The position numbers and the translations under genes are program-made. A stretch of DNA of 64,000 nt. It comes from Diplonema papillatum (taxonomy: Eukaryota; Euglenozoa; Diplonemea; Diplonemida; Diplonemidae). The stretch lies in the NCBI GenBank assembly GCA_030068145.1, contig JAPJBO010000095.1, positions 248,001 through 312,000 of the forward strand, written 5' to 3'. This document shows positions 15,178 to 64,000 of this stretch, piece by piece (position 1 is the stretch's first letter; every line of letters begins with the position of its first letter). The notes beneath the pieces are model-generated. The model was not told the DNA's origin. It saw only the letters and a program-made list of their open reading frames with translations, and made no database searches.

Positions 15178-15747
15178 ATAGAACACGGGGAGCTGTACCT
15201 GCTGTCGCTGCTGCTCGAGCTTTTGTCCTTGACTGCGACGGCGCGGTCGGGCTTCGCCGCTCGCTTCTCCGCCTTGTCGGCCAGGCGGTAGGCCGCCTTG
15301 AGCTGGCTGATTTCCGCTTCGCTCTTGATGAACGCGTTGATCCCGAGGAACTCTTCTTCGGTGATCGCCTTCACCTCGACCGCGCGGGAGAAAACGTCCG
15401 CGATGTACTGCGCAGCCTGCGTCGGCTGCATCCAGCAGAATATCTGGCACAGCCGGCCGGTGAACCCACCCTTCGTGATCAGCCGGAACACGTCCTCGTA
15501 CTCCTTGTCCTCGTGGCATGCTATCAGCAGCATGAAGTAGAAGTAGCACGCCTGCAACCGCTTGCCCACGTCTTGCAAGTAGTAGTCCATCAGCCGCAGC
15601 TCGAACACGCGGAGGGTGTCCTTGATCAAGTGGTCCCTCTCGAGGACCCAGTGGACCGCTGCCTTCATCTTCTGCACGTCGTAAGTCTTCAGGGCGCGCA
15701 TGTGGTCGAGCAGCTCTTCCACCTCCTCTTCTGACAACGCGTCAGGC
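15168..15747 (-). CDS. Exon of a helical protein of unknown function
   Basis: A GC3-rich open frame of about 190 codons begins after a clear 3' splice site (pyrimidine run then CACAG, exon from 15747, phase 2). There is no upstream ATG in frame, so the 5' exon(s) lie at higher coordinates and were not identified. The protein is mostly alpha-helical by eye, contains 'HWVLERDHLIKDTLRVFELR' and 'FRLITKGGFTGRLCQIFCWM', and ends in a basic, Ser-rich tail. I do not recognise the family. The stop falls in the S2 repeat, giving a tail 'CSIFV'. Alternatively a good donor 'GCAG/GTACAG' at 15199/15198 ends the exon earlier and puts S2 in an intron. Upstream, at 15780-15850, lies the same module that precedes both RRM-gene acceptors. 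Confidence 0.7.
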
Positions 15748-15777
15748 CTGTGGGGGGTGGTCGTTATTGGTGCTGGT

Positions 15778-15860
15778 TTTAGAGTTAAAGTTCGCTGGAG
15801 ATTCCGGGGGTTTTAGGGTCTCCGTGTGACTGGTGTGAAATGGGGTTTCTTAGAGCAAGA
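15778..15860 (-). repeat. Intron 3' module upstream of the 15747 acceptor
   Basis: 'ttttagagttaaagttcgct', 'ttttagggtctccgtgtgac' and 'cttagagcaagaaacggcta' match RRM intron 1 at 22052-22135. On the minus strand the module ends about 30 bp before the splice acceptor. It contains 'ctttaactctaaaa', which could hold the branch point. Confidence 0.7.
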
Positions 15861-16080
15861 AACGGCTACATAGTTGGTTTTGAGAGATAAGGAAAGCCTT
15901 TCCGAAAGGTAAGAAAATCTTTTGGCGGTGGTCTCCAGCTGGTCCGGTATTTTTGCTCCTCCGTTCGTTTACACTCGGTACTCTCGTACGAACAACACAG
16001 GTAGTGGGTTGCTTCTCCTAGCTATCCGTTGGAAAATTGAAAATTTAAATTAAGTGCGCTCGGCTAAGGCCGGCGCGTGG

Positions 16081-20235: not shown

Positions 20236-20717
20236 GGCGACAACGCCACCTTCCCGCCAACTGAAAGCGGAAACTGAAAGCGCAACTGCGTTGAGGAGAG
20301 AGCAAGAGCAGCCAGATGGCAAAATTCAGACCCAACCTCTGAAAGAAAAGATTCCCAAAAATTCTGAGAACCGGCAGATTGTATCACCTCGACCCGCGAT
20401 TTGAAGGCAGCGTATAGATAGTTGGTGTAGAATAATTCGGACGATGTACAGACAAAAAAAGCACGCGTCTTATGATAGCCGTGTCGCAAACACATTGTAC
20501 GAAGCAACCGGAAAAGGTTGCAGAGCAGTGAGAAAGAATTCAGAAAATGCCATACTGGTCGACTCCTCCGTAGTAATCGACCGGCTGAGGTATCGATGGG
20601 AGCGGGTACTGTGCTGGGCTGTCTGGGTAGCCAATTAAGCGGTTCTGCGTTGTTAATTGTGTTCGTGCTTCCCCTTTTGGCATATCATGAAGAAAGAGAG
20701 GAGAGGGTTGGTTTGGA

Positions 20718-20800
20718 TGAGGATGCAAAGCTGTGGCGATAATCTGCATCGCCGGCGTCGCGGTTATCTCTTCTTCGCACGTGATGTGGCATGATTTCGC
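20718..20800 (+). repeat. Partial copy of the 27.2-kb repeat family
   Basis: 'gatgcaaagctgtggcgata' plus 'atctgcatcgccggcgtcgc' and 'gcacgtgatgtggcatg' closely match 27890-27960. Confidence 0.65.
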
Positions 20801-20934
20801 CTTTTCAGCTCGTCTTGATCGTCGCGTTCAGGCGCGCGTTTGATGCTTCGCTTCTACTTCGACTGCTCGTCCAGGTTCATCGGTTGCGCGTCGACAGTTG
20901 CTTCCTTACGGCGCTTGAACGATGGCCGTGTTGT

Positions 20935-23378
20935 CTATTGTGGAGTTGCTGAGGTGGATCGTCGCTTCTTCGTCTTCGCTCTCGAGACCGGGTTTCGCAC
21001 TTCGCCCTCTGCTTTCGGAGGTACCAGCACCACGTTGGCGCGCTTCGCTTGCTAGTTTTGTTTTATTCTAGTGTTGTTTGTGGATTAGAAGGTCGGCATT
21101 TTAAAGTCTCCGGTAGACCGTGGATTGAGAGGGTTGAGAAACGTGAGAGGGTGCAGCTCGTTTCGGGCTCCGTTGTGAAACCTTGTGAGGTCCCCTAACG
21201 CGTTTAGGGGGTGTTTGGATTGGGTAGGGTGTGGTCGTTCTGCTACGGCTCGTCAGGAAGATCCCGGTGTCTGGCTTTTCTTCTGGGTGGTTTCGTGTTG
21301 CTCTTATTATTTTACTTTTTGTTTGTTGTTGACAACATATTGTGGTTGAGGTGTCATGTACATCTAAAGCCGCCCACGTCAAATTTTATGTTAAGCATTG
21401 AGTTCTGTAAAGTGCAAGTGCCATGAAGGCAGGCGAGCACCACTGTAGGCACCCAAAGCATTGAGTTCTGTAAAGTGCAAGTGCCATGAAGGCAGGCGAG
21501 CACCACTGTAGGCACCCAAAGCATTGAGTTCTGTAAAGTGCAAGTGCCATGAAGGCAGGGAGCACCACTGCAGGCACCCAAAGCATTGAGTTCTGTAAAG
21601 TGCAAGTGCCATGAAGGCAGGCGAGCACTGTCAAGCACTGGGAACTTTTGTGGGCTTGAACCACGCGGATTAGCATGCACTTGTGAAGCAGGCTTCGGAG
21701 GAGACGACGCTGCCGCAGGAGAGAGGGCTAGAGAAAGAGGGGTCCATACCGCAGGAGCCCCAGCCCCCGGAGGTTTGCCGTAGAGAACCTTGATCGGGAT
21801 CCCCGCAAGCGGTTTACCGATGAGCGAGTTCCGGACGGCGGTGGCGTAAGGGATGCCCGTGAAGTTGACGAACGCGATCTTCTTGTCCTCGTACACGACG
21901 ACGTTCACGAGCCCGGGGCAGTCCGCGAAGAGGTCGTTCATGAACTTCTCGTTGAGGGGAGGCATCTGTAAGCCGCCGATCCACACGATGCTCGACGGCG
22001 ACTCATGCTCGCCCAGCGAAAACTTCCCTGTCACAGTGTGTGCATTTTTTTAGAGTTAAAGTTCGCTTGAAATTCCGGGGTTTTAGGGTCTCCGTGTGAC
22101 GGTTCATGAATGGGTTCTCTTAGAGCAAGAAAGGGCTATGTGGTTACGGGTTGCATATTTAGTGCACGCTTTCGTTATGGGTTCTGGCTAGCCATGTCCG
22201 GGACTGTTTGTGACCGACACCAAGTACATTCCTTCGTGGCGCGTTTTTGTGTCGCGTTCGGAACAAGAGGAGGAATCCTTTGTGAAAGCGTCGCTCGCAG
22301 ACATCGCGCGCTCGGGTAAACTGTCGCATATCTTAAAAAGCGCAACAACGCACGCTATACACATGCTTTAGCGTACTGTAAGCCTGGTGTGCGACCATCG
22401 TGGACGTGTTGCTGCTTCGCCACTTTGTTGTAGACCCCACTTGTGGGTCTTGCGGGTCCTCTAGCCTCCGTGACACTGGCCTTGCAGCCAATGCAGGCAC
22501 AAAAAAGTTTTCACCAGAAACTCCCGTTAAAAAACCCTTTTTTATTGGGAAAAATAAATTCCCTCTGGTGCTAAAGTGCAAGTGCCATGAAGGCAGGCGA
22601 GCACCACTGTAGGCACCCAAAGCATTGAGTTCTGTAAAGTGCAAGTGCCATGAAGGCAGGCGAGCGCTGGACGTCTTTTTTAGCCTGCACAATACATTGA
22701 AGGGCAACCCGCAAGATTGTTAGCACTAAAGAAATCGACAATCGGTGCTATACCTGTTGGGACGGGAGGAGGAGCTGTGTGCTTGGCGAAGCCGGGCTGC
22801 ACCTTCGACCCGCAGATCATCTCTTCCATCGCCGCGTTTTTCGCCGCCACGGCCCCGGGGATGCCCATGAAGTTCACGAACGCGATTCCCTTCGAGTACA
22901 GCACCTTGATGCAGTCGAGGGGGCCGAACCTCTGAAAGTAGGTCCACAAGCTGTCCTCCGTGTGCGCTGCCGACAAACCGCCGAGCCACAGGGTCCGGCT
23001 GGGCGGGTTGTCCACCAGGCCTTCTTCCAAACCTTTAAACCCGCCTTTGTCGCCGCCTTTGTCGCCGCCTTTAAAACCGCCACCCTTGAAGCCTTTGTCG
23101 CCCTTGTCCCCTTTGAAGCCCTTCTGGCCCTTCTCGAACCCCCCGTCGCCTCGGAACCCCTTTTCGGCGCCTTTGAACCCGCCCCAGTCGCCTTTGCCGC
23201 CGCGGTTGAAGAAGTTGCCGGCGTCGGGCATCTTGCCGCCTTTGAACCCGAGCTCGCCCTTGATCCCTTTGCCCACCAGCGCCAGCGCTTCCATCGACAG
23301 GCCGGGAGGCAGCGGCGGGCCCCCGTTGTCCATGGGCGGGGGGCCCAGGGGCATCGGCGGCATGTCGATGGGCATCAT
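20935..23378 (-). CDS. Two-RRM RNA-binding protein, three exons
   Basis: Exons: 23378-22754, 22027-21750 and 21051-20935 (1020 nt, 339 residues). The ATG is at 23378. Exon 1 ends CAACAG/GTATAG in phase 1, and exon 2 starts after GTGACAG, restoring the frame. Exon 2 ends GCG/GTATGG in phase 0, and exon 3 starts after AACTAG and ends in TAG at 20935. Residues 1-40 are Pro/Met-rich and 41-120 are Gly/Lys/Phe-rich (FKGG, KGFKGD repeats), a low-complexity RNA-binding region. RRM1 is about 128-198 (RNP2 'LWLGGL', RNP1 'KGIAFVNF'). RRM2 is about 221-293 (RNP2 'VWIGGL', RNP1 'KKIAFVNF'). The tail is basic (AKTKKRRS). It probably binds RNA, perhaps in splicing or mRNP assembly; the exact role is unknown. 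Exon 3 is short, so its assignment is less certain than exons 1 and 2. Confidence 0.8.
21052..21749 (-). other. Intron 2 of the two-RRM gene
   Basis: 698 bp, GTATGG...AACTAG. Its 3' part (21075-21130) has the intron module 'ttttaaagtctccggtagac'. A 'cttctaatcc' on the minus strand about 40 nt before the acceptor resembles a branch point. The middle holds a 63-bp tandem repeat. Confidence 0.65.
21393..21650. repeat. 63-bp tandem repeat within the intron
   Basis: 'aagcattgagttctgtaaag' starts copies at 21393, 21456, 21519 and 21581. Each is followed by 'tgcaagtgccatgaaggcag' and 'gagcaccactg'. Further single copies are in intron 1 (22573-22665) and at 34362-34412. Confidence 0.9.
22028..22753 (-). 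other. Intron 1 of the two-RRM gene
   Basis: 726 bp, GTATAG...TGACAG, phase 1. The 5' part (22676-22753) holds 'aacaatcttgcgggttgccc' (minus strand). The 3' part (22052-22260) holds the module with 'ccctaaaaccccggaatttc' and 'ctttaactctaaa'. Both ends recur elsewhere in the window, so the intron is largely made of dispersed-repeat sequence. It also carries one and a half copies of the 63-bp unit. Confidence 0.75.
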
Positions 23379-23689
23379 CTTCGCTCCTCTTTTCTTCTAC
23401 CCCCCGAACACCCCCTACCCCTTACCAACCCGAGCTCTTTTGCCTGCTTGGAGGCGAAGAGTCGAGCTAGCCCATCCTGTTTGATTTGAAGTGAAGCAAG
23501 GGTGGTGGGAGAGAGAAAAGTCCTGTACCACAGGATGCAGTAGTAGTAGTAGTAGTAGTCGGCTAGCAATACTAATCTTCTGAGACTAGTGTATGTAATC
23601 TAGACAAAGCCTCCTTGGGTGCAAATTTTTCCTACATGACTATTTTGGTGTTTTGGAGCGTGGAAACACCCCCCCGTCGTCTCGGAACC

Positions 23690-23913
23690 CCTTTTCGGCG
23701 CCTTCGAGCCTGCCCCAGTCGCCTTTGCTGCCGCGGCTGTGTATTAGTTGCCGGCGTCGGGTATCTTGCCGCCTTTGAACCCGAGCTCGCGCCCTTGATC
23801 CCTTTGCCCACCAGTGCCAGCGCTTCCATCGACAGGCCGGGAGGCAGCGGCGGGCCCCCGTTGTCCATGGGCGGGGGGCCCAAGGGCATCGGCGGCATGT
23901 CGATGGGCATCAT
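23690..23913 (-). pseudogene. Decayed 5'-end copy of the RRM gene, copy A
   Basis: It starts with the same ATG context and first about 40 codons as the real gene. An insertion after 'KGIKG' then shifts the frame, and much of the Gly/Lys region is missing. It carries the same 5' flank (to about 24150), including a (TAG)n run. Offset from the functional ATG is 535 bp. Confidence 0.85.
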
Positions 23914-24184
23914 CTTCGCTCCTCTTTTCTTCTACCCCCCGAACACCCCCTACCCTTTACCAACCCGAGCTCTTTTGCCTGCTTGAGGCGAAGAGTCGAG
24001 CTAGCCCATCCTGTTTGATTTGAAGTGAAGCAAGGGTGGTGTGGGGAGAGAGAAAAGTCCTGTTCCACAGGATGCAGTAGTAGTAGTAGTAGTCGGCTAG
24101 CAATACTAATCTTCTGAGACTAGTGGATGTAATCTAGACAAAGCCTCCTTGGGTGCAAATGTTTACCACATGACTATTTTGGTC

Positions 24185-24419
24185 CGTCGTGGAACCCCTT
24201 TTGGGCGCCTTCGAGCCCGCCCCAGTCGCCTTTGCTGCCGCGGCTGTGTATTAGTTGCCGGCGTCGGGCATCTTGCCGCCTTTGAACCCGAGCTCGCGCC
24301 CTTGATCCCTTTGCCCACCAGCGCCAGCGCTTCCATCGACAGGCCGTGAGGCAGCGGGGGGCCCCCGTTGTCCATGGGCGGGGGCCCAAGGGCATCGGCG
24401 GCATGTCGATGGGCATCAT
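24185..24419 (-). pseudogene. Decayed 5'-end copy of the RRM gene, copy B
   Basis: This is the second upstream copy, offset 506 bp from copy A. It has the same frameshifting insertion ('gcgcc'), so A and B descend from one truncated duplicate. A one-base loss in the 'gggcgggggccc' stretch breaks the frame again. Confidence 0.85.
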
Positions 24420-24651
24420 CTTCGCTCCTCTTTTCTTCTACCCCCCGAACACCCCCTACCTTTTACCAACCCGAGCTCTTTTGCCTGCTTGAGGCGAAGA
24501 GTCGAGCTAGCCCATCCTGTTTGATTTCAAGAATTGGAGTGAACCAAGAGCGTGAGCGGTGGTCCTCAAACAAGCACACTGCTTTCCATCGAGACAACAC
24601 TTCTATTCTACACCTCTCGTGTCACTGCACAAAGTCAGACTAGAGTCAAAC

Positions 24652-25059
24652 TCAAAACGGGTCTTCTTTCCCCGCTGACAGTTTCAAGTCCGTTCCCTTG
24701 ACTGTTGCTGTTCCGCCAGATAGATAGGGACAGAAGGAATCGCATTGGTGACGATTGGTCCATTCACGCGTCTTTAATTGGAAGACGAGGCATTCGGCTA
24801 CTTTACGAGAGCCATGGTTACTCTCGCCGTTTCCCCGCGCTTGACCTGATCTCTCAGCGTTGAACTGGCAGAAGGCACATTCCTCGCCGCCGCTGTGATG
24901 AAGCAAAATGCGGCAGCTTAAACAACCAGTTGGATTCTTCTCGTTCTTAACAGCTCCGAGCTGACGTTTCATTGCAGGCGCAACATGCAAGAAGGCGCGG
25001 AAGAAACCGCCGCGGCTCTTGCGCCGGATGAGGCTCCACGCGTTTTGTTGTTCCTCCAT
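24652..25059 (-). CDS. Possible small protein with CxxC-x11-CxxC, unknown function
   Basis: 135 codons from ATG at 25059. The sequence contains 'CLSCRILLHHSGGEECAFCQ', a pair of CxxC motifs spaced 11 residues apart with two His between, which could bind zinc. A third C-rich stretch, 'HQCDSFCPYL', follows. Codon use is less GC3-biased than the confirmed genes, so it may be a decayed or mobile-element-derived reading frame. It lies directly upstream of the RRM pseudogene copies, on the same strand. Confidence 0.4.
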   Translation of the reverse strand: MEEQQNAWSLIRRKSRGGFFRAFLHVAPAMKRQLGAVKNEKNPTGCLSCRILLHHSGGEECAFCQFNAERSGQARGNGESNHGSRKVAECLVFQLKTREWTNRHQCDSFCPYLSGGTATVKGTDLKLSAGKEDPF

Positions 25060-25476
25060 CGTGATCTTGCGTGTGAAGTTTCGTTGGAACACTCAAGAGT
25101 CATCTGTTTGCACAGTCTCCAAGGCGAGTGCACACCTTCGGCGCAACCTTATCAAGAGAGATCGCACCTCTTTGCACAGGCTGAATTCAGTATGTGCGTT
25201 TCCAATTACATGTATTCGAGTTTCGTAGCAATGCTCAACAATCGTCGTTGTTGGTTGCTTTCTAGTTTGCACTTTCCACTTTCGCCCATGAAGTTTCGTT
25301 TGGCAACATTCAAGGGTCGTCTGTTTGCACAGTCGACTCCGTCGTCGACGAGCTGTCTGGTCAGCGGTGGTTTGACTGAAGGATACCAAACGAAGAAGGA
25401 TTGAGCACGCCTATAATACACGGGAACGAAGTTCCGGTTTCGTTCCGCAATTCACCCAGAAAGGGTGGGGAAATAA

Positions 25477-29327: not shown

Positions 29328-30031
<704 letters not shown>

Positions 30032-31365
30032 AGGAATTTCGCAGGGGAACCTTGTCCGAGCGCATTTATTCACTAATGCGTGTGGGGGGGGATGGCTCGC
30101 AGGAATGCGCACCCCTCAGTATCTCATTCTTCATGAAGAGTGTCCGGATCACAATGCAGGGTCAAGCTCGAGGCGGGAAAACAACAGACAACCCCAATGC
30201 ACCGGTTCCGAAATAGATGGTTTTCAAGCGATCCCCCCATAGTTGGCCGCGTACTGGTATCACACAGCCGGGCGTGCGTAGGAGTGCGTGGTCCACCCCG
30301 CGAAGTCGTTGGCGTGAGCCTCGATGGAGCGTGGATGAGTGCAGATCTTGGATGTAGTAGCGAATATTCAATGGAGAACATTGAAGGCCGAAGTGGAAAA
30401 GGTTGCCGTGTCAATGGGTCAGTCGGTCCTGAGGCGAGGTGGAGTGGCTCGCCTCAAAGCTGCCACTGACCTTGCTCGGACGTGCAGGATTGCCGAAAGG
30501 GAATGCGTGAACATTTCGCAACCCGGACGCAGGAACCCGAAGTGGTGACACATTGTCCACAGGCCCCGGATGATGCAGTCGTCTCTTTTGAAGAAAGGTT
30601 GACCCTTGAAACGCTTCACGCGGAGACAAGATTGCTGTAGGAACGATCCTGGAAAGCTGCACTTTCTTCGTGTGTAGTGGGATGTCTTGTGGATGTGCAT
30701 GGAAAAAAACAGGAGACCCACCGATCCCTGTCTTCCATCCCATCATGGTGTGTCGGGCAACGGAGTGCCAGCTTACACGTTCAGTTTCGTCTTTCAGTCT
30801 CACATACAACTTGGGGCTTCCCGGGTACGGACCCCGAACTTGCCATCACACGCCGAACTCACACTGTTTCTCCTCGAGACTCGCAAGGGGCGCCCTAACG
30901 CCCAATTTAATTTGAAAGTTATGCGAATCCTGCAGGGACGAGTTGGCTAGACCTCTCGAGTTTGCTGAGTCGGGAGTGCGGAGCCGAAATCCTTATTCCG
31001 CAACTGTTACGAGCAAGAGGAAACCCAAGGTCTACCGCCGACAGACTCTCCCAAGAGCTATCCTACGGTAGCAACGACGTTTGCTTTCTTTTCTGTGTGT
31101 TTCCGACGATCCCGTACGGGCGTGCAGAGTTGGTGTCTTTCGACCTTTTTTTGTTGTTGCTTTCCAACAAAGCAAGGTGTCGTATCCGAAGAAGAAAAAG
31201 GGAAAAGAAGGCGCACGACGTTCGGCGAGGAGCCTCTTAACAGTGTGGGGCTGGCTGGCTCCGGGGCCAGGCGGGAGTGGGCCTACTGGGAAAACAGTAG
31301 AAAGTGTCCCCTCTGAGACTTGCAATGGCTTAATCCTTGAAACAAGCATGTGACTGCTGGCAGAT
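30032..31365. other. Stretch without an assignable gene
   Basis: Only short frames without GC3 bias. A 'tgtttccgacgatcccgtac' plus 'ttggtgtctttcgacctttt' block at about 31097-31147 recurs at 29040-29090 and 51899. It therefore belongs to another dispersed family that happens to precede the RIIa-like exon. Confidence 0.4.
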
Positions 31366-34690: not shown

Positions 34691-36535
34691 TTACTTTATG
34701 ACGTCGTCACCTGTCATTGCGTCGTCAAGGTCGAGTACTTGTGGCGCCAGGGGCGCTGGGCTTTCTTGCGGTTCTGGAGATTGCGTGGAGGGGCACAGGT
34801 GCGGACAATCTTGCACGTTTTTCACTCTCGAGGGCACTGGAGTGCTTGGGGACGTCGAACGTTTCTGGTAGCTGTTTGCTTTAAGGGCCATCCTCTTCCT
34901 TCGTTGCACCCCTGACTCGGGTGTGGTCGCCTTCGCCTTCTTCCGCTTGCGGCCGGCGATCGGGCTCTCCTTCGGGGTGCCGAGCACCCTCTTTTTCAAC
35001 GCTGGTCGTTCGCCGGTGCCTGGCGTTGGTGGCGGCCTCTTGGCTGCCCGTCCGGTCGTCGCCGTCTTCTGCTTCGCTACGGCGGGCGGCGCCTGCGCCG
35101 CGCGCTTTCCCGCCGGCGTTTCACGTTGTACGCCCCCCTGGGTGGGTGAGAGGGGTCTCTTCTTTTTGCTGTGTCCGGGGGTTGCCGGGGCGTTAGGTTC
35201 GTTTGGTTGGTGGTGGCCGCGGCGGCAGCACGCTGCCGGTCTCCTCTGCGTCAACGTAGGGAGCCTCCTGCATTCTTGGCAGGTTCCTCTGCCATGCGTG
35301 CGGCAGGCATGATGCCCGCTGCGGCAGCACGCCGCCGCCGTCTTGCACTCGCCGCACTTCGTCGTGCTGTGCTCCACGCACACGGCGATCGGCTGCCCAT
35401 CGTCAGCGTGGTGATGGTGCCGACAGCACATCTCTACCGTGGGTACGTCCCTTCGGACGAGTGCTCGGCACGCCTCACACTTCCCCTTGTGGTGGGTCGC
35501 GCAGGTGACGAGTGCTTTCTCTACTCCGACACCCGGCATATGTACGGGGTCGGGGTGCAGCTGTGGTGGGACAGGCAGGGCCCACCTCGCCGCTCTCTCG
35601 GCCGTCCAGTCCGGGTACGTCGGGCACTGCGTCCCTATATCGCTTCCCTTCACCTGCTCTTCGAGGATCGTCCCCGTGTGTGCCTCGCGAAAGCGGGGCC
35701 TGGGCCGCACCCCCGATATCCCCGTGATGCCCATGAACGACAGCGACGTCGTCGGGCATACTCTCTCGCCTCTCTCGCAACTCCCCAGCCCTTGCTGTGT
35801 CGCCAGCTTGTCCAAAGCGCTGATCATGCAGCGCAGGACGTTTCCTCGCTCCCTCACCCCCTTCGGTGTATTCTCGTGCAGCGGTATGCTGAGGCCTGAA
35901 AAGAGTTCAAAGTCGATGGCAAGCTCTAGCATTGACGCCTGCCCGTTCTCGGTCCACTCCATGTCTGATAGCCACGCCACCAACGCATAAAACGTCGGTA
36001 GTCCCCAGGCCTTGTTCCGCTCCCACGCCCATGCCGGGGCAATCCGCGCAAAGGGGTGGTCGAGCTTCTTGGCAGGCATCGCATCCGCTCTCGACCAGGG
36101 GGTCGTGGGGTTCCTGGCTACCCAGCCTCGTGCTTCGAGCCCTGCCCGTTCCGCTAGGATTTCAGCCATCATCTCCTGGAGCCGCCTTGAGAAGTGGGCA
36201 TTCTCGGGTACTACCACTCCGTGTTCCAGCGTGCATCTGGGCCAGTCGGCGCGGTTGGCCGCCATCAGCCCGGCATGTGCCTCTCGTCGCCGTATGTGCG
36301 AGTACGCTCCGCAGTCCCAAAATACGTGTTTCTCGTCCTCGGTATCGCCGCTTCCACAGTGCTTGCAGCTGGGCGCCTGCGGCTCAGCTCCGGCCTGCCT
36401 CATCCGCGACGTGAACTCAGCCGTGTTCACTCCTCCCGCCAACGCTACACGTATAAGCCTCGCGGTGTGCGCGGGACATTCTCGCATCTTCCAGAAGGAG
36501 TTCGTCCGCTCCAGGTCAGCCCTCGAATCCCGGCC
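34691..36535 (-). pseudogene. LINE ORF2 C-terminal part with zinc-binding motifs
   Basis: A long open frame (598 codons from ATG 36487) continues the retrotransposon. Near the start 'CKHCGSGDTEDEKHVFWDC' is the zf-RVT type knuckle found after RT domains. In the middle (about 35205-35515) three Cys/His repeats follow each other, each like C-x2-H-x5-C-x2-C and then 'CC-x3-HH'. The last 150 residues are Lys/Pro/Thr-rich and could bind nucleic acid. The ORF is intact to its stop at 34691. Confidence 0.75.
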
Positions 36536-37403
36536 GCCTCGCTACTAGACGGGACAGACAGGGGCCCTGGTCCCCATACGTGTCCACACTCCTCCATGCT
36601 CCTCATCGCCAGCCCAACTGGCCCCAGGGGTAGGTCCCCCTCGGCGTACCTTCCCCGGATGCTCTCCATCAGAGGCAGAAGTCGTGGCAACCTCTCGCAC
36701 GCCGCGTAGAACGCCGTCGTCACCCTATATGCTAGGCATGTACTGGGGTCCGTCAGGTGGCCCTTCTCCTGAAAATTTAGGACCATCTCCCTCGAGCGCT
36801 TTGGGTTGGATCCACCCCAGATCAGTCCCATCACCGACGTCGTCAGCCGTTTCATTGCCACCTTCGACACCGGCGCGAAAGAGCAGCCTGACAGCGCCGC
36901 CGGTAGCACATTCGACTGTACAATTCGGACCCGCTTCTCGTGCCGGAACGGCGCATGGCGGAGGCCTTCCGCCAGGGCAGCCGCCTTCTCCACCTTCTCC
37001 GAGTCGGACCTTTCTGTCCTATTCTTTGCCGTCGAGACTAGGACCCCCAGGCACGTGACAGATTTGCCAAACCGCAGCAGCGCATCCACGCTGCGGAGTC
37101 TGAGCGTCGACTGATGCCTACGTCTCGTCGAGAAGGCGACCGTTTTCTGGAGGTTTAGCTCCATTCCGGTGAGCGTGCAGAACTCGTCTACTACGTCCAC
37201 CCCCTTTTGCAGGGCGGCCTCCGACAGCCTGGATAGCAGCGTGGCATCGTCTGCGTACGACTTTGGGCTCACCCCCTCCGCTTCTTTCTTGACCGCCTTC
37301 ATCACTACCGACAGCAGGGCATTGATGAGGATGACGGACACAGGGCACCCTTGAAGGATACCATTGGTCACACTAAACTCCCTGCCCACCCCTAGAGGCA
37401 GCT
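36500..37403 (-). pseudogene. Reverse transcriptase domain (partial)
   Basis: The frame contains 'NGILQGCPVS' (RT motif 4/B region) and the catalytic 'SYADDATLL' (motif 5/C, near 37250), followed by thumb-like sequence with 'CLGVLVS' and 'LIWGG'. Motifs 0-3, including the first catalytic Asp, are absent. Coding sense passes to another frame around 36500-36540, where the RT frame soon meets a stop (36445). A single-base indel is the simplest explanation. Not functional as it stands. Confidence 0.85.
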
Positions 37404-37407
37404 TTGT

Positions 37408-37457
37408 TAAGCATTGAGTTCTTTTAAGTACATGAACCACATGGGACTAGCATGCAC
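37408..37457 (+). repeat. Right flanking copy of the 50-bp repeat
   Basis: Nearly identical to 34624-34675, differing by one inserted g ('catgggactagcatgcac'). Confidence 0.8.
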
Positions 37458-37989: not shown

Positions 37990-38706
37990 CTTGACGACGG
38001 CGCCCGTGATGATGAGGTCGCCTTCTTCGACGCTGAACCCGTGGCTGTGCAGCAGCCGGATCGCGCGGTGCAGCTCGGCGACGCAGTTCAGCTTCGCGGC
38101 GGGGCCGACGGGCGTTCCGTTGATGGACATGCACACGTCGCGCTCGCACAGCTTGTCCAGCGCATTCCCCAGGTCCCCGGCGGCGCAGATGGGTCGGAAG
38201 ACTACCGAGTGGCACAGGCCGAAGTCGGCGATTTTCTGCACGAGCCCTGCACCCGGGCCCTTCCGCACGCAGCTAGCCGCGATTTCGATCGCGACGCCGA
38301 CCTGGGCGACCGCCTTCTTCACGGCCTCTACGGGCATGGAGGGGTCCGCGTCTTTGCAGGGGAGCGCCTGCCCCATGATGAAGGCCCATTCTCCCTCCGC
38401 CACGCCCACCGTATCGATCCGGAGGGGGTCCAGCGTGCAGCCTGACTCGCGGATGAAGTCCTTCATCAGCGGTGCCACGAACGGCTCGGACATGCCGAAC
38501 GCCTTGAAGGCGCCGTCGGGGTTGTTGACGCCCACCTTCCACCCCACCCGGGGGCCGAGCGCCGGAGAGGCCAGCAGCTCGCGGTGGACGCAGTACGCGT
38601 CCTCCAAGCTCTGGACGGGCGCCACGTCCTCCACCTCCACCCACGTCCCGTCGAGCCGGGCGGTCGTGATCTTCCGCGCGATCGCTGCCGCGTCCATCGT
38701 CGGCAT
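37990..38706 (-). CDS. FAH-superfamily hydratase/hydrolase, first exon
   Basis: 239 GC3-rich codons from ATG (38706) to a clear donor AAG/GTATAC at 37990/37989, phase 0. The sequence follows 2-keto-4-pentenoate hydratase-like enzymes: 'GWKVGVNNPDGAFKAFGMSE' at 55-74, metal-ligand pair E104-x-E106 in 'EGEWAF', third ligand E141 in 'VAIEIA', and 'GDLIITGAVVK' at the exon end. The last 25-30 residues expected for the fold should be in a second exon that I could not find, so the gene may be truncated. Without splicing the frame reads on only to 37936 through a poly-C tract. Such enzymes act on 2-oxo acids in catabolism with Mg or Mn. Three copies of the 5' end lie upstream. Confidence 0.82.
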
Positions 38707-38862
38707 TTTGTGGCGCGAACGGGGGGGTGGGGGACCTGGATTACAGATAAAACAGTGGTGTCACCTGAGGAGGGGAATCTCAGGGCCGCCTACGTGATAA
38801 AGAAAGCCGGCTGCCGGCTTGTTCCGTGACACCTTTTATTACAGAGATCCTATTGTGTAGTT

Positions 38863-38935
38863 GGTTTTGAGCGGAACCTTGCTTGAGAATCTGGGGTTCC
38901 AGAGTCTCCGGAGACCCTGGTACTGTATACTTGGT
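38863..38935 (-). repeat. Intron 3' module in the hydratase upstream region
   Basis: 'ttttgagcggaaccttgctt' and 'ccagagtctccggagaccc' match the module seen before splice acceptors. The minus-strand ATG is about 160 bp downstream. An untranslated first exon with an intron ending near 'tgtaatccag' (38737-38746) is possible. Confidence 0.5.
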
Positions 38936-39113
38936 ATACTTAGTGTCGTAGTGCGTTGCTCAGGGTAGTCGAAGGCCTGACAATCACACTAATGCAACAA
39001 ATGTACACTTAGTGTCAGTGCATGTTCGTGTGGGTGTCTTGATTGACTGTTGCCACGGTCAATCCCTATCCCCTGGAACTGCATCGAATTGCCTGCCGCC
39101 GTTTAAGTTTAAA

Positions 39114-39343
39114 GTCTGGATGAAGTCCTTCATCAACGCCTTGAACGCGCCGTCGGGGTTGTTGACGCCCACCTTCCACCCCACCCGGGGGCCGAGCGCC
39201 GGAGAGGCCAGCAGCTCGCGGTGGACGCAGTACGCGTCCTCCAAGCTCTGGACGGGCGCCACGTCCTCCACTTCCACCCACGTCCCGTCGAGCCGGGCAA
39301 TCGTGATCTTCCGCGCGATCGCTGCCGCGTCCATCGTCGGCAT
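39114..39343 (-). pseudogene. Hydratase 5'-end copy 1
   Basis: ATG plus about 76 matching codons, with a 30-bp in-frame deletion removing 'FGMSEPFVAP'. The sequence then runs into unrelated intron-module sequence and stops at 39059. Residues 12-16 read 'KITIA' where the gene has 'KITTA'. Confidence 0.9.
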
Positions 39344-39750
39344 TTTGTGGCGCGAACGGGGGGGTGGGGGACCTGGATTAAAGATAAAACAGTGGTGTCA
39401 CCTGAGGAGGGGAATCTCAGGGCCGCCTACGTGATAAAGAAAGCCGGCTGCCGGCTTGTTCCGTGACACCTTTTATTACAGAGATCCTATTGTGTAGTTG
39501 GTTTTGAGCGGAACCTTGCTTGAGAATCTGGGGTTCTAGAGTCTCCGGAGACCCTGGTACTGTATACTTGGTATACTTAGTGTCGTAGTGCGTTGCTCAG
39601 GGTAGTCGAAGGCCTGACAATCACACTAATGCAACAAATGTACACTTAGTGTCAGTGCATGTTCGTGTGGGTGTCTTGATTGACTGTTGCCACGGTCAAT
39701 CCCTATCCCCTGGAACTGCATCGAATTGCCTGCCGCCGTTTAAGTTTAAA

Positions 39751-39980
39751 GTCTGGATGAAGTCCTTCATCAACGCCTTGAACGCGCCGTCGGGGTTGTT
39801 GACGCCCACCTTCCACCCCACCCGGGGGCCGAGCGCCGGAGAGGCCAGCAGCTCGCGGTGGACGCAGTACGCGTCCTCCAAGCTCTGGACGGGCGCCACG
39901 TCCTCCACTTCCACCCACGTCCCGTCGAGCCGGGCAATCGTGATCTTCCGCGCGATCGCTGCCGCGTCCATCGTCGGCAT
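39751..39980 (-). pseudogene. Hydratase 5'-end copy 2
   Basis: Apparently identical to copy 1 over the coding part, including the 30-bp deletion and the 'KITIA' variant. Confidence 0.9.
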
Positions 39981-40387
39981 TTTGTGGCGCGAACGGGGGG
40001 GTGGGGGACCTGGATTAAAGATAAAACAGTGGTGTCACCTGAGGAGGGGAATCTCAGGGCCGCCTACGTGATAAAGAAAGCCGGCTGCCGGCTTGTTCCG
40101 TGACACCTTTTATTACAGAGATCCTATTGTGTAGTTGGTTTTGAGCGGAACCTTGCTTGAGAATCTGGGGTTCTAGAGTCTCCGGAGACCCTGGTACTGT
40201 ATACTTGGTATACTTAGTGTCGTAGTGCGTTGCTCAGGGTAGTCGAAGGCCTGACAATCACACTAATGCAACAAATGTACACTTAGTGTCAGTGCATGTT
40301 CGTGTGGGTGTCTTGATTGACTGTTGCCACGGTCAATCCCTATCCCCTGGAACTGCATCGAATTGCCTGCCGCCGTTTAAGTTTAAA

Positions 40388-40617
40388 GTCTGGATGAAGT
40401 CCTTCATCAATGCCTTGAACGCGCCGTCGGGGTTGTTGACGCCCACCTTCCACCCCACCCGGGGGCCGAGCGCCGGAGAGGCCAGCAGCTCGCGGTGGAC
40501 GCAGTACGCGTCCTCCAAGCTCTGGACGGGCGCCACGTCCTCCACCTCCACCCACGTCCCGTCGAGCCGGGCGGTCGTGATCTTCCGCGCGATCGCTGCC
40601 GCGTCCATCGTCGGCAT
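40388..40617 (-). pseudogene. Hydratase 5'-end copy 3
   Basis: Same deletion as copies 1 and 2 but with 'KITTA', as in the intact gene. Confidence 0.9.
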
Positions 40618-40949
40618 TTTGTGGCGCGAACGGGGGGGTGGGGGACCTGGATTAAAGATAAAACAGTGGTGTCACCTGAGGAGGGGAATCTCAGGGCCGC
40701 CTACGTGATAAAGAAAGCCGGCTGCCGGCTTGTTCCGTGACACCTTTTATTACAGAGATCCTATTGTGTAGTTGGTTTTGAGCGGAACCTTGCTTGAGAA
40801 TCTGGGGTTCTAGAGTCTCCGGAGACCCTGGTACTGTATACTTGGTATACTTAGTGTCGTAGTGCGTTGCTCAGGGTAGTCGAAGGCCTGACAACCACAC
40901 TAATGCAACAAATTACACTTAGTGTCAGTGCATGTACGTGTGGGTGTCT

Positions 40950-41316
40950 TGATTGACTGTTGCCACGGTCGATCCCTATCCCCTGGAACTGCATCGAATT
41001 GCCTGCCGCTGTTTAAGTTTAAAGTCTCCGGGTGACCATCGTCGAAACGGTTTTTTCACGGCCATCGTTCCTGGGATGCATATTTTACTTACTGCGCTAG
41101 TGGCAATGCGCATTGCGTGTGTGGGTCTTTGTTGCCTGTTGCCGCGGTCGATCCATCCCCTGGAGCTGCATCGAATCGCCTGCCGCTGTTTAAGTTTGAA
41201 GTCTCCGGGTGACCATCGTCGAAACGGTTTTTTTTTTCACGGCCATCGTTTCCTGGGGAGCATATTTTACTTACTGCGCTAGCGGCAATACGCATTGCGA
41301 GTGTGGGTCTTTGTTG
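40950..41316. repeat. 183-bp tandem repeat, two copies
   Basis: 'gtctccgggtgaccatcgtc' plus 'catattttacttactgcgct' occur twice (about 41027 and 41204), with 'cccctggaactgcatcgaat' or 'cccctggagctgcatcgaat' in each. It continues the hydratase flank repeats. Confidence 0.8.
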
Positions 41317-45276: not shown

Positions 45277-45372
45277 TAAGGAAGATAGTTACAAGACTTC
45301 CGTAGAAATTGGAATGAGACTACGAAGGACTGGCGCGCTCTGTATTGTCTTTTTAGCGTTATTTGTGGATTT

Positions 45373-45570
45373 TTAGAGTTAAAGTTCGCTTGAAATTCCG
45401 GGGGTTAGGGTCTCCGTCTGACCTATCATTAATGGGTTCTCTTAGAGCAAGAAAGGGCTAAATGGTTACGCGTTGTATATTTGGTGCACGCTTTCGTTTT
45501 GGGTTATGGCTAGCCATGTCCGGGAATTTTTGTGACCGAAACAAAGTACATTCCTTCGTGGCGTGTAGTC
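45373..45570 (-). repeat. Solitary intron 3' module, long form
   Basis: About 190 bp closely matching 22052-22250 of RRM intron 1, including 'cttagagcaagaaagggcta', 'ggctagccatgtccggga' and 'aagtacattccttcgtggcg'. No exon is recognised downstream on the minus strand. Confidence 0.7.
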
Positions 45571-49236: not shown

Positions 49237-49289
49237 AACAAGAAAGGGCTATATGGTTACGTAGCCCATACCGGTCTGTTTTCCGCGTT

Positions 49290-49490
49290 TTTAGAGTTAA
49301 AGTTCGCTTGAAATTCCGGGGGTTTAGGGTCTCCGTCTGACCGGGTTCTCTTAGAGCAAGAAAGGGCTATATGGTTACGGGTTGCATATATGGTGCACGC
49401 TGTATGTACAATATGGGTTATGGCTAGCCATGTCCGGGACTGTGACTGACACCAAGTACATTCCTTCGTGGAGTGTAGTCTTGGGCCCAC
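49290..49490 (-). repeat. Solitary intron 3' module, long form
   Basis: It matches 45373-45570 and 22052-22250. Confidence 0.7.
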
Positions 49491-59227: not shown

Positions 59228-62200
59228 TCAGCTCTCCGGCTGCTGCGCGGGCAGAGGCAGCCGACTGCCGGCCAGCCGCTTGGGTGGCGAGCCCGCCATT
59301 CGATGCGCATTGCGAGCTTTCGGAGACGAGGGGTGCACTCCAGCAGTGTGCCCCCGCTGGATGCTGAGGGTGTCCGGAGACGTGGTCGGGTCGGACGGGG
59401 ACCCCGTGGGCCACGACGTCGTGGCAGCGAACGCGAGGTCGTCATCGTCCGGAGCGCTGGCCAAGCCCAGCTGCAGGTGCCGGCGCCGCTTCGGGGAGAG
59501 CGGCGAAGAGCAGATCCGGAGCACCGGGCTCGCGGCGGTGTGGACGGCATCCGACACGCTCCGCACGCTGCCTCTGCTGGGGGAATACGCGAACGACGCG
59601 TTTCGCAGCAGCGGGCTCAGGACAGAATCATCGCCGTCAGGCCCGACGTCAGACTGCCTTCGCATGCTTCCCCGACTCGGAGACAGCGCGAACGACGAGT
59701 TACGCAGCAAAGGACTCAGCACGGAGTCTCTGCCGTTAGCGTCGTCGTCGGGCGCGGTGTCCAGCCGCCTGCGCATGCTGACCGAAAGCGCGGAGGACGC
59801 GTTCCTCTGCATCGGGCTCTGGATCGAGCTCATGTCCTTCGCGTCCTCGTCGGTCGCGCCGGTCAGGTCGGAATCTTGCTGCGAGAACGACCCGCGTCGG
59901 CCGCACTGCTCTTGAGGCAGGGTTGATTCGAGCCCGCCGGATACCATCAGCACGAGGGACTTCGGCGTCATGTCCGTGGCCAGAGAAGACGGGCGCTTGC
60001 GGTCTGCCCGGGGATTGGCGGACAACGGCACCAGGTTGCGCGGAGAGCTGGCGGCGGCGTTCGCGCTCGACAGGACCGACGAGCGCCGCCGCATCATCCG
60101 GCTGTTGTTGAAGCTCCCCGACAAGGCCATCGCGGGGGGGTGCAGCGGCGAATCGTCGACGCTCGAGTCGCATCGCGTCGCGGTTTCCTCGCGCAGGCGG
60201 GTGACCGCTAGGCTCCGGCGGCGCGACGGCTCGCTCCTGGGTGAGGCGTCGGAGTCCCGCTCGAAGCCCTCTGACAGGGGCTGGACCGAGCTTGAATACG
60301 CCCGGCGCCAGTCACCCCCCAGGGACTGCTGGACGTACGTGGCGTCGTTGATGAGGAGCGTGTTGCGGCGCGCGCTTCGGAACGGCGACGACGGCTGGTC
60401 CAAAAACGGGTCCAGAATGCTCCCCGGTCGCGCGCCGGTTTGCGACGGGGGCGAAAACGGCGGCTTCGCGAGGAAGAGGCGGGAGGAGGACGACGAGTTC
60501 ACCGTCAGGTCGAGCCTTTGCGAGACGGTGCGGCCGGTCGTGTTGGACGAGGCCTCGTCCGCCGGAAGGGAGACCATTCCGAATGGATCGTCCACGAAGA
60601 CGTACGGCAGCACCGACGTTTCGGTCAGCTCCTCGGCGTCGAACCACGAAGACGTCGAACTGGTCACGTCCACTTTCAACGCCCATTTGCCCTGTTTTTT
60701 AGCCTCCGATTCGCCTTCGGTCTGCAGGTCCGCGAGCGGCTTGGTGTTGTTGCTGCAGAACGCTGCTGCTTGCAGCCTCGCGCGGCGGCCGGTGAGCATC
60801 ACGCAGCACTCGCCGACGAGGTCGAGAATCGCTTGTGCGAGCAGCACATACACGGCGGCGGAGACGCAGATCTCCGCGAACGTGAACCATCCGTCGTGGT
60901 GCAGGTAGAAGGACACCGCGAGGCAGAACATGCCGAGCGCTTGCACGAAAAGAACGAACAGGATGCAGATCTGGTTCGCGGGCTTGCACCGGGGCCGGTT
61001 CCACAGCTCGACGAAGAAGACGGTCAGGAAGACGCACCCGCACGCTATTCGAACGTGCCCGCACCCCACGAGGCTTTCGGGTTCGAGGCACATCGCGAAC
61101 GACAGCGCAGCGGACGCCGTGCTCTCCATAAACGAGTGCCACGCGAACTCCGTCTTGAAGCTTCGGGTCGCGGCGCCGAATCTGCGGACCCAGTCGTTGC
61201 TCGCGCGCGCGCTGACCCACTCGCCGGGGCCCGCGAAAAACGCGAACAGCCGCGCCGCCGGCGCCGCGGCCGGCGCGTCCAGCATGTAGGCCGCCCGCCG
61301 CGGGATATCGGCCTGCACCTTCCGGGCGACCGCAACGGGGAGTGCGAGGCACAGGATGGCCACCGCGCAGCCCAGCACCGTGGCCCCGGGGAACGGCGGG
61401 TAGAACGCCAGCCGCGCCGCGCCGAACGTGGTGCCCAGGTGGAGGACCTGTGCGGTGAAGAGCGGCACCGACGGGAAGTACAGAAACCCTTCGGGGTCCG
61501 CCAAGTGCTCTTTGGCGTATTTGGTTGACTTTAGGCACAGCACCGCGATCGCGGAGACCATGTACAGCAAAGCGACGATCAAGCAGTTGATGACGACGAC
61601 GCCGAGGTCGAGGGACCCGGCTATCCGCAGCTGCGTGGGGTGCATGGCGATCGGGTAGTTGTCCCCGTTGAGGACGGTGGCGGCGTTGCCCCCGTGGCAC
61701 GTCCGCATCACGAGCGTCAGCTGAGTCGCGAGGATCCCAGATCCCGCGGTGATGGCGACGCCGGTTGTCACGGTTCCCACAGTGCCCGTGTCCGTGCTTT
61801 GCCCCGAAGGTGCGACTGTACTCGGCGCTTCGGTACCAGGCGTCGCGCCCACGGTGTCAGATGCTGTCGTAGATGGTGGTTCAGTGCCAGCTGCTGTGGG
61901 CGGTGACACGGTGGCAGGTGCTGTTGTCAGTGGTGACACGGTGGCAGGTGCTGTTGTGGATGTTGTGGATGGTGCCACAGTGTCAGGTGCTGCTGTCAGT
62001 GGTGACACGGTGTCAGGTGCTGCTGTCAGTGGTGACACGGTGGCAGGTGCTGTTGTGGATGTTGTGGATGGTGCCACAGTGTCAGGTGCTGCTGTCAGTG
62101 GTGACACGGTGTCAGGTGCTGCTGTCAGTGGTGACACGGTGGCAGGTGCTGTTGTGGATGTTGTGGATGGTGCCACAGTGTCAGGTGCTGCTGTCAGTGG

Positions 62201-64000
62201 TGACACGGTGTCAGGTGATGTTGTTGGTGGTGATTCAGTGTCAGGTGTTGTGGATGGTGACTGAGAGTCAGATGCTGCTGTCAGTGGTGTCACAGTGTCA
62301 GGTGCTGTTGTGGGTGGTGATGCAGTGTCAGGTGATTTTGCTGGCGGTGACACGGTGTCACGTCCTGTCGAGGATGGTGACGTAGTGTCAGGTGCTGCTG
62401 TCAGTGGTGACACGGTGTCAGGTGCTGTTGTGAGCGGTGCTGCAGTGTCAGGGACTGTTGTGGTTGGTGAAACAGTGTCAGGTGCTGTTGTGGGCGGTGC
62501 TTGAGTGTCAGGTGCTCTTGTGGATGGTGACACAGTGTCAGGTGCTGTTGTGGGTGGAGCTATTGTTGCAGGCGCTGCAGTGAGCGGTGACATGGTGTCA
62601 GGCGCTGTTGTGGGTGGTGATTCCGTCTCCGGCGCCGCTGTGGCTGGTGCTGCCGTGGCAAGGGCCGCAGTGGGCGGTGATTCAGTGTCAGGCGCTGTCG
62701 TCGTGGGCGGTGATTCAGTCTCCGGCACCGCTGTGGCTGGTGCTGCCGTCGCAGGGGCCGCAGTGGGCGGTGATTCAGTGTCAGGCGCTGTCGTGGGCGG
62801 TGACCTTGTGTCAGGTGCTGTTGTGGGTGGAGCTACCGTTGCAGGCGCAGCAGTGGGCGGTGATTCAGTGTCAGGCGCTGTTGTGGGCGGCGATTCAGTG
62901 TCAGGCGCTGTTGTGGGCGGTGATTCAGTGTCAGGCGCTGTTGTGGGCGGTGATTCAGTGTCAGGCGCTGTTGTGGGCGGTGATTCAGTGTCAGGCGCTG
63001 TTGTGGGCGGTGATTCAGTGTCAGGCGCTGTTGTGGGCGGTGATTCAGTGTCAGGCGCTGTTGTGGGCGGTGATTCAGTGTCAGGCGCTGTTGTGGGCGG
63101 CGATTCAGTGTCAGGCGCTGTTGTGGGCGGTGATTCAGTGTCAGGCGCTGTTGTGGGCGGTGATTCAGTGTCAGGCGCTGTTGTGGGCGGCGATTCAGTG
63201 TCAGGCGCTGTTGTGGGCGGTGATTCAGTGTCAGGCGCTGTTGTGGGCGGTGATTCAGTGTCAGGCGCTGTTGTGGGCGGTGATTCAGTGTCAGGCGCTG
63301 TTGTGGGCGGTGATTCAGTGTCAGGCGCTGTTGTGGGCGGTGATTCAGTGTCAGGCGCTGTTGTGGGCGGCGATTCAGTGTCAGGCGCTGTTGTGGGCGG
63401 TGATTCAGTGTCAGGCGCTGTTGTGGGCGGTGATTCAGTGTCAGGCGCTGTTGTGGGCGGTGATTCAGTGTCAGGCGCTGTTGTGGGCGGTGATTCAGTG
63501 TCAGGCGCTGTTGTGGGCGGTGATTCAGTGTCAGGCGCTGTTGTGGGCGGCGATTCAGTGTCAGGCGCTGTTGTGGGCGGTGATTCAGTCTCCGGCGCCG
63601 CTGTGGCTGGTGCTGCCGTCGGCGGTGATACGGTATCGGGCGCTGCCGTGGGCGGCGACCCGGTTTTGGGTGCCACAGTGGGTGCCACAGTGGGTGCCAC
63701 AGTGGGTGCCACAGTGGGTGCCACAGTGGCGGGAGCTTCCGTCTCCGGCGCGTCCGTGTCCGGTGCTACCATCGCGCAGCTGAGAATCTCCGAAGGGGCC
63801 ATGAACCGGTCGTGGAACTTAACCTCGTCCAGCATCACCGCAGCCGCTGGCTCGTCGCTGTCAACCCTCCCGACCGTCATGTCGCTGCCCAATGAGACCT
63901 GAGGCGACACGGCGAAGGTGGCGAAACTCGCGAAGTTGTAGGTCGCGACGACACTCTGTCCGTTACAGGCCACCACCAGCTGACCCCAGGAGTCTAAGGG
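59228..64000 (-). CDS. LamG, Thr/Pro-rich stalk and multi-TM surface protein (5' partial)
   Basis: The open frame enters at the right edge and ends at 59228 (about 1590 codons seen; the N-terminus is outside). The start resembles the end of a LamG/concanavalin-like domain ('WGQLVVACNGQ', 'MLDEVKFHDRFMAPSEI'). Then comes about 670 residues of Thr/Pro-rich repeats, dominated by APDTESPPTT units, likely an O-glycosylated stalk. Next, about 61620-60800 encodes roughly seven hydrophobic helices ('VVVINCLIVALLYMVSAIAV', 'VFLTVFFVEL', 'ILFVLFVQALGMFCLAVSFY' and others); an extra one just before them is possible. The tail of about 500 residues is Ser/Arg-rich with several RRxS sites ('RRRSLAV', 'RRGSFS', 'RRQSDV') and a threefold 'SVLSPLLRNxSFA' repeat. 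It is presumably a plasma-membrane adhesion or receptor protein; the ligand is unknown. Confidence 0.85.
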   Translation of the reverse strand, partial: PLDSWGQLVVACNGQSVVATYNFASFATFAVSPQVSLGSDMTVGRVDSDEPAAAVMLDEVKFHDRFMAPSEILSCAMVAPDTDAPETEAPATVAPTVAPTVAPTVAPTVAPKTGSPPTAAPDTVSPPTAAPATAAPETESPPTTAPDTESPPTTAPDTESPPTTAPDTESPPTTAPDTESPPTTAPDTESPPTTAPDTESPPTTAPDTESPPTTAPDTESPPTTAPDTESPPTTAPDTESPPTTAPDTESPPTTAPDTESPPTTAPDTESPPTTAPDTESPPTTAPDTESPPTTAPDTESPPTTAPDTESPPTTAPDTESPPTTAPDTESPPTTAPDTESPPTTAPDTESPPTTAPDTESPPTTAPDTESPPTTAPDTESPPTAAPATVAPPTTAPDTRSPPTTAPDTESPPTAAPATAAPATAVPETESPPTTTAPDTESPPTAALATAAPATAAPETESPPTTAPDTMSPLTAAPATIAPPTTAPDTVSPSTRAPDTQAPPTTAPDTVSPTTTVPDTAAPLTTAPDTVSPLTAAPDTTSPSSTGRDTVSPPAKSPDTASPPTTAPDTVTPLTAASDSQSPSTTPDTESPPTTSPDTVSPLTAAPDTVAPSTTSTTAPATVSPLTAAPDTVSPLTAAPDTVAPSTTSTTAPATVSPLTAAPDTVSPLTAAPDTVAPSTTSTTAPATVSPLTTAPATVSPPTAAGTEPPSTTASDTVGATPGTEAPSTVAPSGQSTDTGTVGTVTTGVAITAGSGILATQLTLVMRTCHGGNAATVLNGDNYPIAMHPTQLRIAGSLDLGVVVINCLIVALLYMVSAIAVLCLKSTKYAKEHLADPEGFLYFPSVPLFTAQVLHLGTTFGAARLAFYPPFPGATVLGCAVAILCLALPVAVARKVQADIPRRAAYMLDAPAAAPAARLFAFFAGPGEWVSARASNDWVRRFGAATRSFKTEFAWHSFMESTASAALSFAMCLEPESLVGCGHVRIACGCVFLTVFFVELWNRPRCKPANQICILFVLFVQALGMFCLAVSFYLHHDGWFTFAEICVSAAVYVLLAQAILDLVGECCVMLTGRRARLQAAAFCSNNTKPLADLQTEGESEAKKQGKWALKVDVTSSTSSWFDAEELTETSVLPYVFVDDPFGMVSLPADEASSNTTGRTVSQRLDLTVNSSSSSRLFLAKPPFSPPSQTGARPGSILDPFLDQPSSPFRSARRNTLLINDATYVQQSLGGDWRRAYSSSVQPLSEGFERDSDASPRSEPSRRRSLAVTRLREETATRCDSSVDDSPLHPPAMALSGSFNNSRMMRRRSSVLSSANAAASSPRNLVPLSANPRADRKRPSSLATDMTPKSLVLMVSGGLESTLPQEQCGRRGSFSQQDSDLTGATDEDAKDMSSIQSPMQRNASSALSVSMRRRLDTAPDDDANGRDSVLSPLLRNSSFALSPSRGSMRRQSDVGPDGDDSVLSPLLRNASFAYSPSRGSVRSVSDAVHTAASPVLRICSSPLSPKRRRHLQLGLASAPDDDDLAFAATTSWPTGSPSDPTTSPDTLSIQRGHTAGVHPSSPKARNAHRMAGSPPKRLAGSRLPLPAQQPES
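61950..62250 (-). repeat. 99-bp coding repeat, three copies
   Basis: 'gtggatgttgtggatggtgc' recurs at about 61953, 62052 and 62151. Each unit encodes 33 residues including 'APSTTSTTAPATVSPLTAAP'. It stays in frame with the stalk. Confidence 0.9.
62866..63595 (-). repeat. 30-bp coding repeat, about 24 copies
   Basis: Each unit encodes APDTESPPTT. Units are identical except for a silent T/C variant ('ggcggcgattc') at units starting near 62881, 63091, 63181, 63361 and 63541. The last three are 180 bp apart. Confidence 0.95.

Follow-up and report, generated by a model that had tools for sequence, protein, structure and literature searches.

A repeat-filled intron in a two-RRM gene of Diplonema papillatum and a retroposon-like element that appears to lie mostly in the sense direction

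A gene for an RNA-binding protein in the Diplonema papillatum genome, with dispersed repeats between its proposed exons, raises the question of whether its introns were created by a mobile sequence, as introners are, or whether introns that already existed were taken over by one. A sequence-only reading had put forward both possibilities for a gene of three exons and two introns. The window, the whole stretch of 64,000 nucleotides that was analysed (C95:248001-312000), was examined together with searches over the assembly of 271 Mb in 2,910 contigs, and the features concerned are given in Table 1. The explanation that we regard as highly probable is an ordinary spliceosomal intron, intron 1, that was invaded by mobile elements, the main one a sense non-LTR-type retroposon (here called el) whose antisense copies were selected out, together with a third exon that is false.

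Table 1. Features of the RRM locus and related repeats, with positions in the window
Feature	Position	Strand	Remark
RRM gene exon 1	22754..23378	-	ATG start, in frame; N-terminal Gly/Lys-rich part and first RRM; coding score
RRM gene exon 2	21750..22027	-	second RRM; profile match and coding score
Intron 1	22028..22753	-	726 nt, GTATAG...GACAG, phase 1
Repeat module M5 near donor	22671..22724	-	TACTAAC-like motif in other copies, then GTGCAG|G
63-bp repeat units in intron 1	22572..22665	-	common to the array in proposed intron 2
Main retroposon-like copy, el	22045..22251	-	3' end CTCTAAAAAAA, 17 nt before the acceptor
Proposed intron 2	21052..21749	-	donor plausible; acceptor unsupported
Tandem array of 63-bp unit in proposed intron 2	21393..21628	-	3.8 copies, 98% matches
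Repeat E3, contains rejected exon 3 (20935-21051)	20705..21053	-	nucleotide and protein genome searches
Partial el copy	15777..15868	-	34 nt upstream of the coding segment below
Coding segment downstream	15201..15743	-	101.6 bits; CACAG|G just upstream
Another el copy	45370..45566	-	same strand as the intron 1 copy
Another el copy	49288..49471	-	same strand as the intron 1 copy

Exons 1 and 2 of the two-RRM gene and the intron between them look real from profile, codon and splice-site evidence, and the in-frame join that had been proposed for them held. The Pfam profile search with the spliced product of both exons gave RRM_1 at E 2.5e-12 in two stretches, and its best matches among solved sequences were SPEN and hnRNP-type RRM proteins. 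The codon score was +0.34 bits per codon for exon 1 and +0.46 for exon 2, each exon being left out of a training set that consisted of kinesin exon pieces found by homology and three stretches of the window. A leave-one-out check of this codon model placed 3 of 36 training pieces below zero; an earlier self-trained model had drifted onto non-coding features and was dropped. The donor of intron 1 is near (G)/GTATG, the donor consensus reported for several diplonemids (PMC12621601). The genome protein search (best 119 of 218 candidates) matched the RRM part of the protein elsewhere only at its own tandem 5' pieces and at C629 (residues 67-147, 47%). The 5' region of the gene is present in three tandem copies (23139-23600, 23670-24134 and 24191-24531; 94% identical to the first), which resembles the repeat-bounded genes with tandemly repeated 5' ends described for D. 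papillatum (PMC10161547).

The third exon, which had been read as coding, was not upheld. It is the first 117 nt (the first third) of E3, a dispersed repeat of about 349 bp. The nucleotide search (query window 21200-20600, minus strand; 46 matches, from the best 40 of 3,321 candidates) showed that, among the matches listed, 24 of the 45 non-self ones start exactly at query position 148 (21053), the proposed AG|exon junction, and none starts earlier; they extend to query position ~496, i.e. ~20705. A large proportion of the protein-search matches (92 of 99, from the best 119 of 218 candidates) cover only the end that belongs to exon 3, at other places in the genome. The codon score of exon 3 was neutral (-3.6 bits over 38 codons), a value that is weak alone, as the three low-scoring training pieces also lie below zero, and at least 12 of the 137 AG sites between the exon-2 donor and position 19000 outscore its acceptor. 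Judged from the shared repeat boundary, exon 3 is a false exon, obtained by reading into a second repeat. Reading into a repeat can yield a false exon in this way.

Because the proposed acceptor is the 5' end of E3, the proposed intron 2 is not a defined intron. Some second intron after exon 2 is likely, since codons read past the exon-2 donor score as strongly non-coding (-76 bits for 131 codons); the donor is plausible and the acceptor at 21051 unsupported. No convincing coding exon was found behind any AG site from the donor to position 19000, the best reaching 8.6 bits. The downstream coding segment in Table 1 is in a frame that does not continue exon 2 (GCC TGA).

Intron 1 is a mosaic of at least three repeat families, one of them with retroposon anatomy. 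M5 begins at intron position 30 and el occupies positions ~503-709 of 726, while the middle holds the 63-bp units and sequence largely without match in what was searched. For M5, 15 matches of at least 25 nt were found in 315 kb, or 13 when its own copy and the duplicate locus L001 are excluded. The presence of dispersed repeats in both introns had been described correctly, and the idea of a takeover by mobile sequence is supported by the composition of intron 1. A 3' module with CGGAGAC was said to precede the acceptors, and it does so, by 54 and 48 nt; the copy in intron 2 has 3 mismatches to the consensus that had been stated for it. With 3 mismatches allowed, this consensus matched the window 8 times, always on the same strand, and three shuffles 0 times. 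A short isoform through an inner AG of M5 (GTGCAG|G, intron position 69) is possible; splicing to it would put a stop directly after the first RRM, and TACTAAC stands just upstream of this inner GTGCAG|G in other M5 copies.

The other half of the earlier proposal, that the introns were created by a mobile sequence in an introner-like manner, was not supported for intron 1. Under the published rule, similarity in an introner must come as close as 5 exonic or 10 intronic nt to the splice sites at both ends (PMC9860276). Intron 1 is not an introner by this rule, because similarity spans positions 30-709 of 726 only; the comparison of match ends with splice sites that had been suggested showed it to start 29 nt from the donor and to stop 17 nt before the acceptor, so that the end-to-end rule failed at both ends. 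It could still be supposed that a unit of about 680 nt, from M5 to el, was inserted into an exon and created the intron, with splice sites recruited at or near its ends. The span of M5 and el over most of the intron, the same order and orientation of the two at C26 and C507, and a kinesin intron (L035) with M5 near its donor and the end of another repeat near its acceptor speak for such an origin. We consider it very improbable, as both margins exceed the 10-nt limit, the middle differs (63-bp units and largely unmatched sequence), the 5' side of el is ragged, and 27 of 40 el copies have no sense coding sequence detected within 400 nt downstream (short exons can escape the scan). The co-occurrence at C26 and C507 and the kinesin intron L035 make it possible that intron 1 is mostly one longer composite element of M5 and el. 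In another kinesin intron (L040), a variant el-like 3' end (80% identical) abuts the acceptor.

The copies of el share with introners (Gozashti et al. 2022, PMC9860276) the occurrence of a repeated sequence in introns of unrelated genes. They differ from the introners reported there in that they are not end-to-end with the intron, have ragged 5' ends, often stand without a detected coding neighbour, and carry signs of retroposons, whereas those introners carry signs of DNA transposons. The sequence-only reading had named ragged copies mostly outside introns as the observation that would speak against it; the 5' ends are indeed ragged, but the same 27 copies do not prove a location mostly outside introns.

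The 23-nt right end of el demonstrated 796 + 801 = 1,597 exact copies genome-wide, and the reversed pattern 0. Among 38 alignments of at least 150 bp, chosen by similarity, 37 keep one right end with an A-run, GAACTTTAACTCTAAAAA or near it, and then diverge, and their left ends vary; the exception without the fixed 3' end is L027:3469. A sample of el copies was formed by the first 40 of 100 listed places, in order, some of which have related flanks (L059/L071, L078/L079). Internal starts were seen in 26 of these 40 alignments, spread over 24 points of el, of which a few (e.g. L085) reflect divergence and not truncation; the other 14 extend leftwards past the part present in intron 1. The fixed A-tailed 3' end and the variable 5' start are retroposon-like and agree with what 5' truncation of a non-LTR retroposon would leave.

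Flanking repeats of 18 nt (L066) and ~20 nt (L075) are possible target-site duplications, both in repetitive surroundings: L066 is flanked by another el end and L075 lies among local repeats. The other copies viewed by eye showed a shared A-run at most. The window contains the reverse-transcriptase ORF of a broken mobile element (36448-37440, minus strand) together with a further ORF (34694-36487, minus strand). An autonomous partner of el was sought at the reverse-transcriptase ORF only, and the 821 nt downstream of it showed no el tail; repeats in common with proposed intron 2 were present downstream of this region.

The favoured explanation, an existing intron invaded by mobile elements, would run as follows. 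Intron 1 of the RNA-binding-protein gene would have taken several mobile-element insertions, among them el, which, to judge from the anatomy of its copies, would be a short retroposon of non-LTR type, its copies being made at an A-run through target-primed reverse transcription. This copy would have been inserted in sense, 17 nt upstream of an acceptor that presumably existed before it. Sense copies would be tolerated in long co-transcribed gene arrays, while an antisense el would add T5-7AG to the pre-mRNA, where it could serve directly as a cis or trans splice acceptor, and would probably be removed by selection.

What appears to be new here is the orientation of the el copies, most of which point the way that transcription runs. 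The window has 8 tail motifs, and every one is on the strand with most of the coding sequence. Over the 18 of 29 loci that have a dominant strand (the 11 others were omitted, as was L014, a duplicate of L010), 43 of 46 tail motifs were sense to the local coding strand, and 18 of 18 loci had a sense majority. The sense:antisense counts at the same loci were 9:1 for M5, 3:0 for K and 30:2 for the 63-bp units, the last in tandem arrays.

A comparison of genes with el, which used homology only, covered 242 genes (113 of 132 kinesin rows and 129 of 133 kinase rows, further exons of one gene being omitted), 58 of which have a listed el copy within 400 kb. With the nearest listed el taken up to 60, 200 and 400 kb away, it lay on the strand of the kinesin or kinase gene in 31 of 33, 44 of 47 and 55 of 58 cases, respectively; the pairs are partly dependent, one el copy accounting for two of the three disagreements. 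This test used 298 el places, and the comparison of el copies with one another 299, of at least 1,597. In the latter, the nearest listed el was on the same strand in 33 of 36 cases (10 kb), 65 of 74 (30 kb) and only 120 of 153 (200 kb). The polarity of el would accordingly be placed at about 87-95%, the lower value being that obtained from the agreement between el copies if the arrays stay unidirectional over 200 kb; this agreement speaks for a figure closer to 87% than to 95%. Each kinesin or kinase gene that has another such gene up to 400 kb away was on the strand of the nearest one, in 69 of 69 cases (reciprocal pairs counted twice), which matches the unidirectional gene arrays published for D. 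papillatum (PMC10161547).

The reverse-transcriptase ORFs (77 of 150 rows, those omitted being mostly on small contigs) were on the same strand as el in 8 cases and opposite in 6, and 0:7 to genes. For E3, with the reading direction of exon 3 taken as forward, the count was 4:1 sense to the coding strand in the fetched loci. In the genome lists E3 departed from the polarity of el and tended to be opposite to kinesin genes, its same:opposite counts within 200 kb being 1:10 to kinesin genes and 14:19 to el, from a list that merges the nucleotide and protein search results and counts some places twice. The supply of A-runs was rejected as a cause of the polarity, since it is nearly balanced between strands (406 vs 342). 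No report of such polarity in diplonemids was listed by literature searches on introners, on retroposons and SINEs, on trans-splicing branch points or on orientation bias in trypanosomes, and the main text of PMC10161547 uses the word 'orientation' once, of genes.

As regards position, sense coding sequence was present within 400 nt downstream of 13 of the 40 sampled el copies and antisense coding sequence of 0, compared with 4.4% sense and 4.5% antisense for random non-coding points; a control with other A-runs had sense coding nearby in 6.1%. A second set, which omits the window's own intron-1 copy, L005 and L014, showed 8 of 46 with sense and 3 of 46 with antisense coding over the same distance. 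On the upstream side, 2 of the 26 copies whose alignment starts inside el had sense coding sequence. A first test of closeness to coding starts, which used random points that could fall inside genes, gave 6 of 51 vs 3.6-4.9 expected at its two lower thresholds and was not significant. Strong docking of el at acceptors was also rejected: CAGG was found 2-24 nt past the el end at 202 of 1,597 places (12.6%; a few counted twice) vs 9.4% after other A-runs, only ~1.3x, and the control word GGAC at 131 of 1,597 (8.2%) vs 7.9% expected.

The strong polarity (55:3) and the one-sided coding neighbourhood in the first sample could also arise if the retroposon machinery inserted along transcription, e.g. 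at R-loops or template-strand nicks, near the 5' sides of genes and without later selection. Such targeting is rather unlikely in our judgement, as the second set was weaker near coding sequence and the reverse-transcriptase ORFs, possibly parts of another element, show no common polarity with el. It is doubtful, though conceivable, that the 3' ends of the retroposons, CTTTAACTCTAAAAA and similar ones in CTAAAAA, also act as mobile branch sites. A sense copy that lands shortly before an AG would then help to form a working cis or trans acceptor, and an antisense copy would bring a harmful TTTTTAG. If this were true, splicing would sort the elements by strand, and introns and gene starts would gain new acceptors from them.

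The closest parallel is found in the SIDERs of Leishmania, so that the polarity of el is a phenomenon of known kind, here stronger and differently placed. Sense SIDERs are typically 4-fold more abundant in Leishmania gene clusters (PMC2689281), and 82% of the SIDER2 in 3'UTRs of L. infantum are in sense (PMC11520807). Both el and the SIDERs, which are truncated and ingi-related, are short truncated retroposons of Euglenozoa with long same-strand gene arrays. The SIDERs are reported mostly from 3'UTRs, with antisense copies enriched more than 3-fold in the spacers that separate poly(A) from trans-splice sites, whereas el, at the higher polarity given above, is found in introns and upstream of coding sequence. 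The sense polarity and the similar bias of the SIDERs (PMC2689281, PMC11520807) would also suit repeats that are working parts of transcripts, such as untranslated-region elements or signals for processing, whose function would keep them in sense, as has been proposed for SIDERs. For el this is distinctly unlikely, given its high copy number, its scattered start points and the 27 of 40 copies without detected sense coding downstream.

In D. papillatum itself, transposable elements are reported to reside within introns, repeat regions to make up 52% of the assembly and the commonest dispersed repeat to occur ~6,000 times (PMC10161547); those passages, on the same genome, do not describe el, its ends or its orientation. 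A genome of which half is repeats can load its introns with mobile DNA without introners. The strong polarity of el in a polycistronic, trans-splicing genome, absent in the reverse-transcriptase ORFs examined, makes it a testable question whether splicing or transcription decides the survival of retroposons.

Several further features of the window and genome were observed. The spliced-leader core of dinoflagellates was not found in 315 kb; as a test of a dinoflagellate origin this is weak, since 0.04 chance hits were expected and the leader genes may be located elsewhere. Diverged pieces of nuclear LSU rRNA lie on opposite strands at 24500-25289 (minus, 133.8 bits) and ~30354-30759 (plus, 68.2 bits), which fits the ~3,600 scattered 28S pieces published for the D. 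papillatum genome (PMC10161547). A perfect ACT triplet repeat of 704 bp occupies 29328-30031, and four tandem units of 637 bp (38498-41027; 98-99% identical) contain coding-like stretches. An open frame of 1,582 aa (59228-63976, minus strand), extensin-like by Pfam, lies over a long array of a 30-bp repeat. Elsewhere, U2 snRNA was found 27 times on contig C1335 (27 of the best 46 of 2,120 candidates), at a spacing of ~1.24 kb with two gaps; U2 snRNA has been reported up to 27 times in a row in D. papillatum (PMC10161547).
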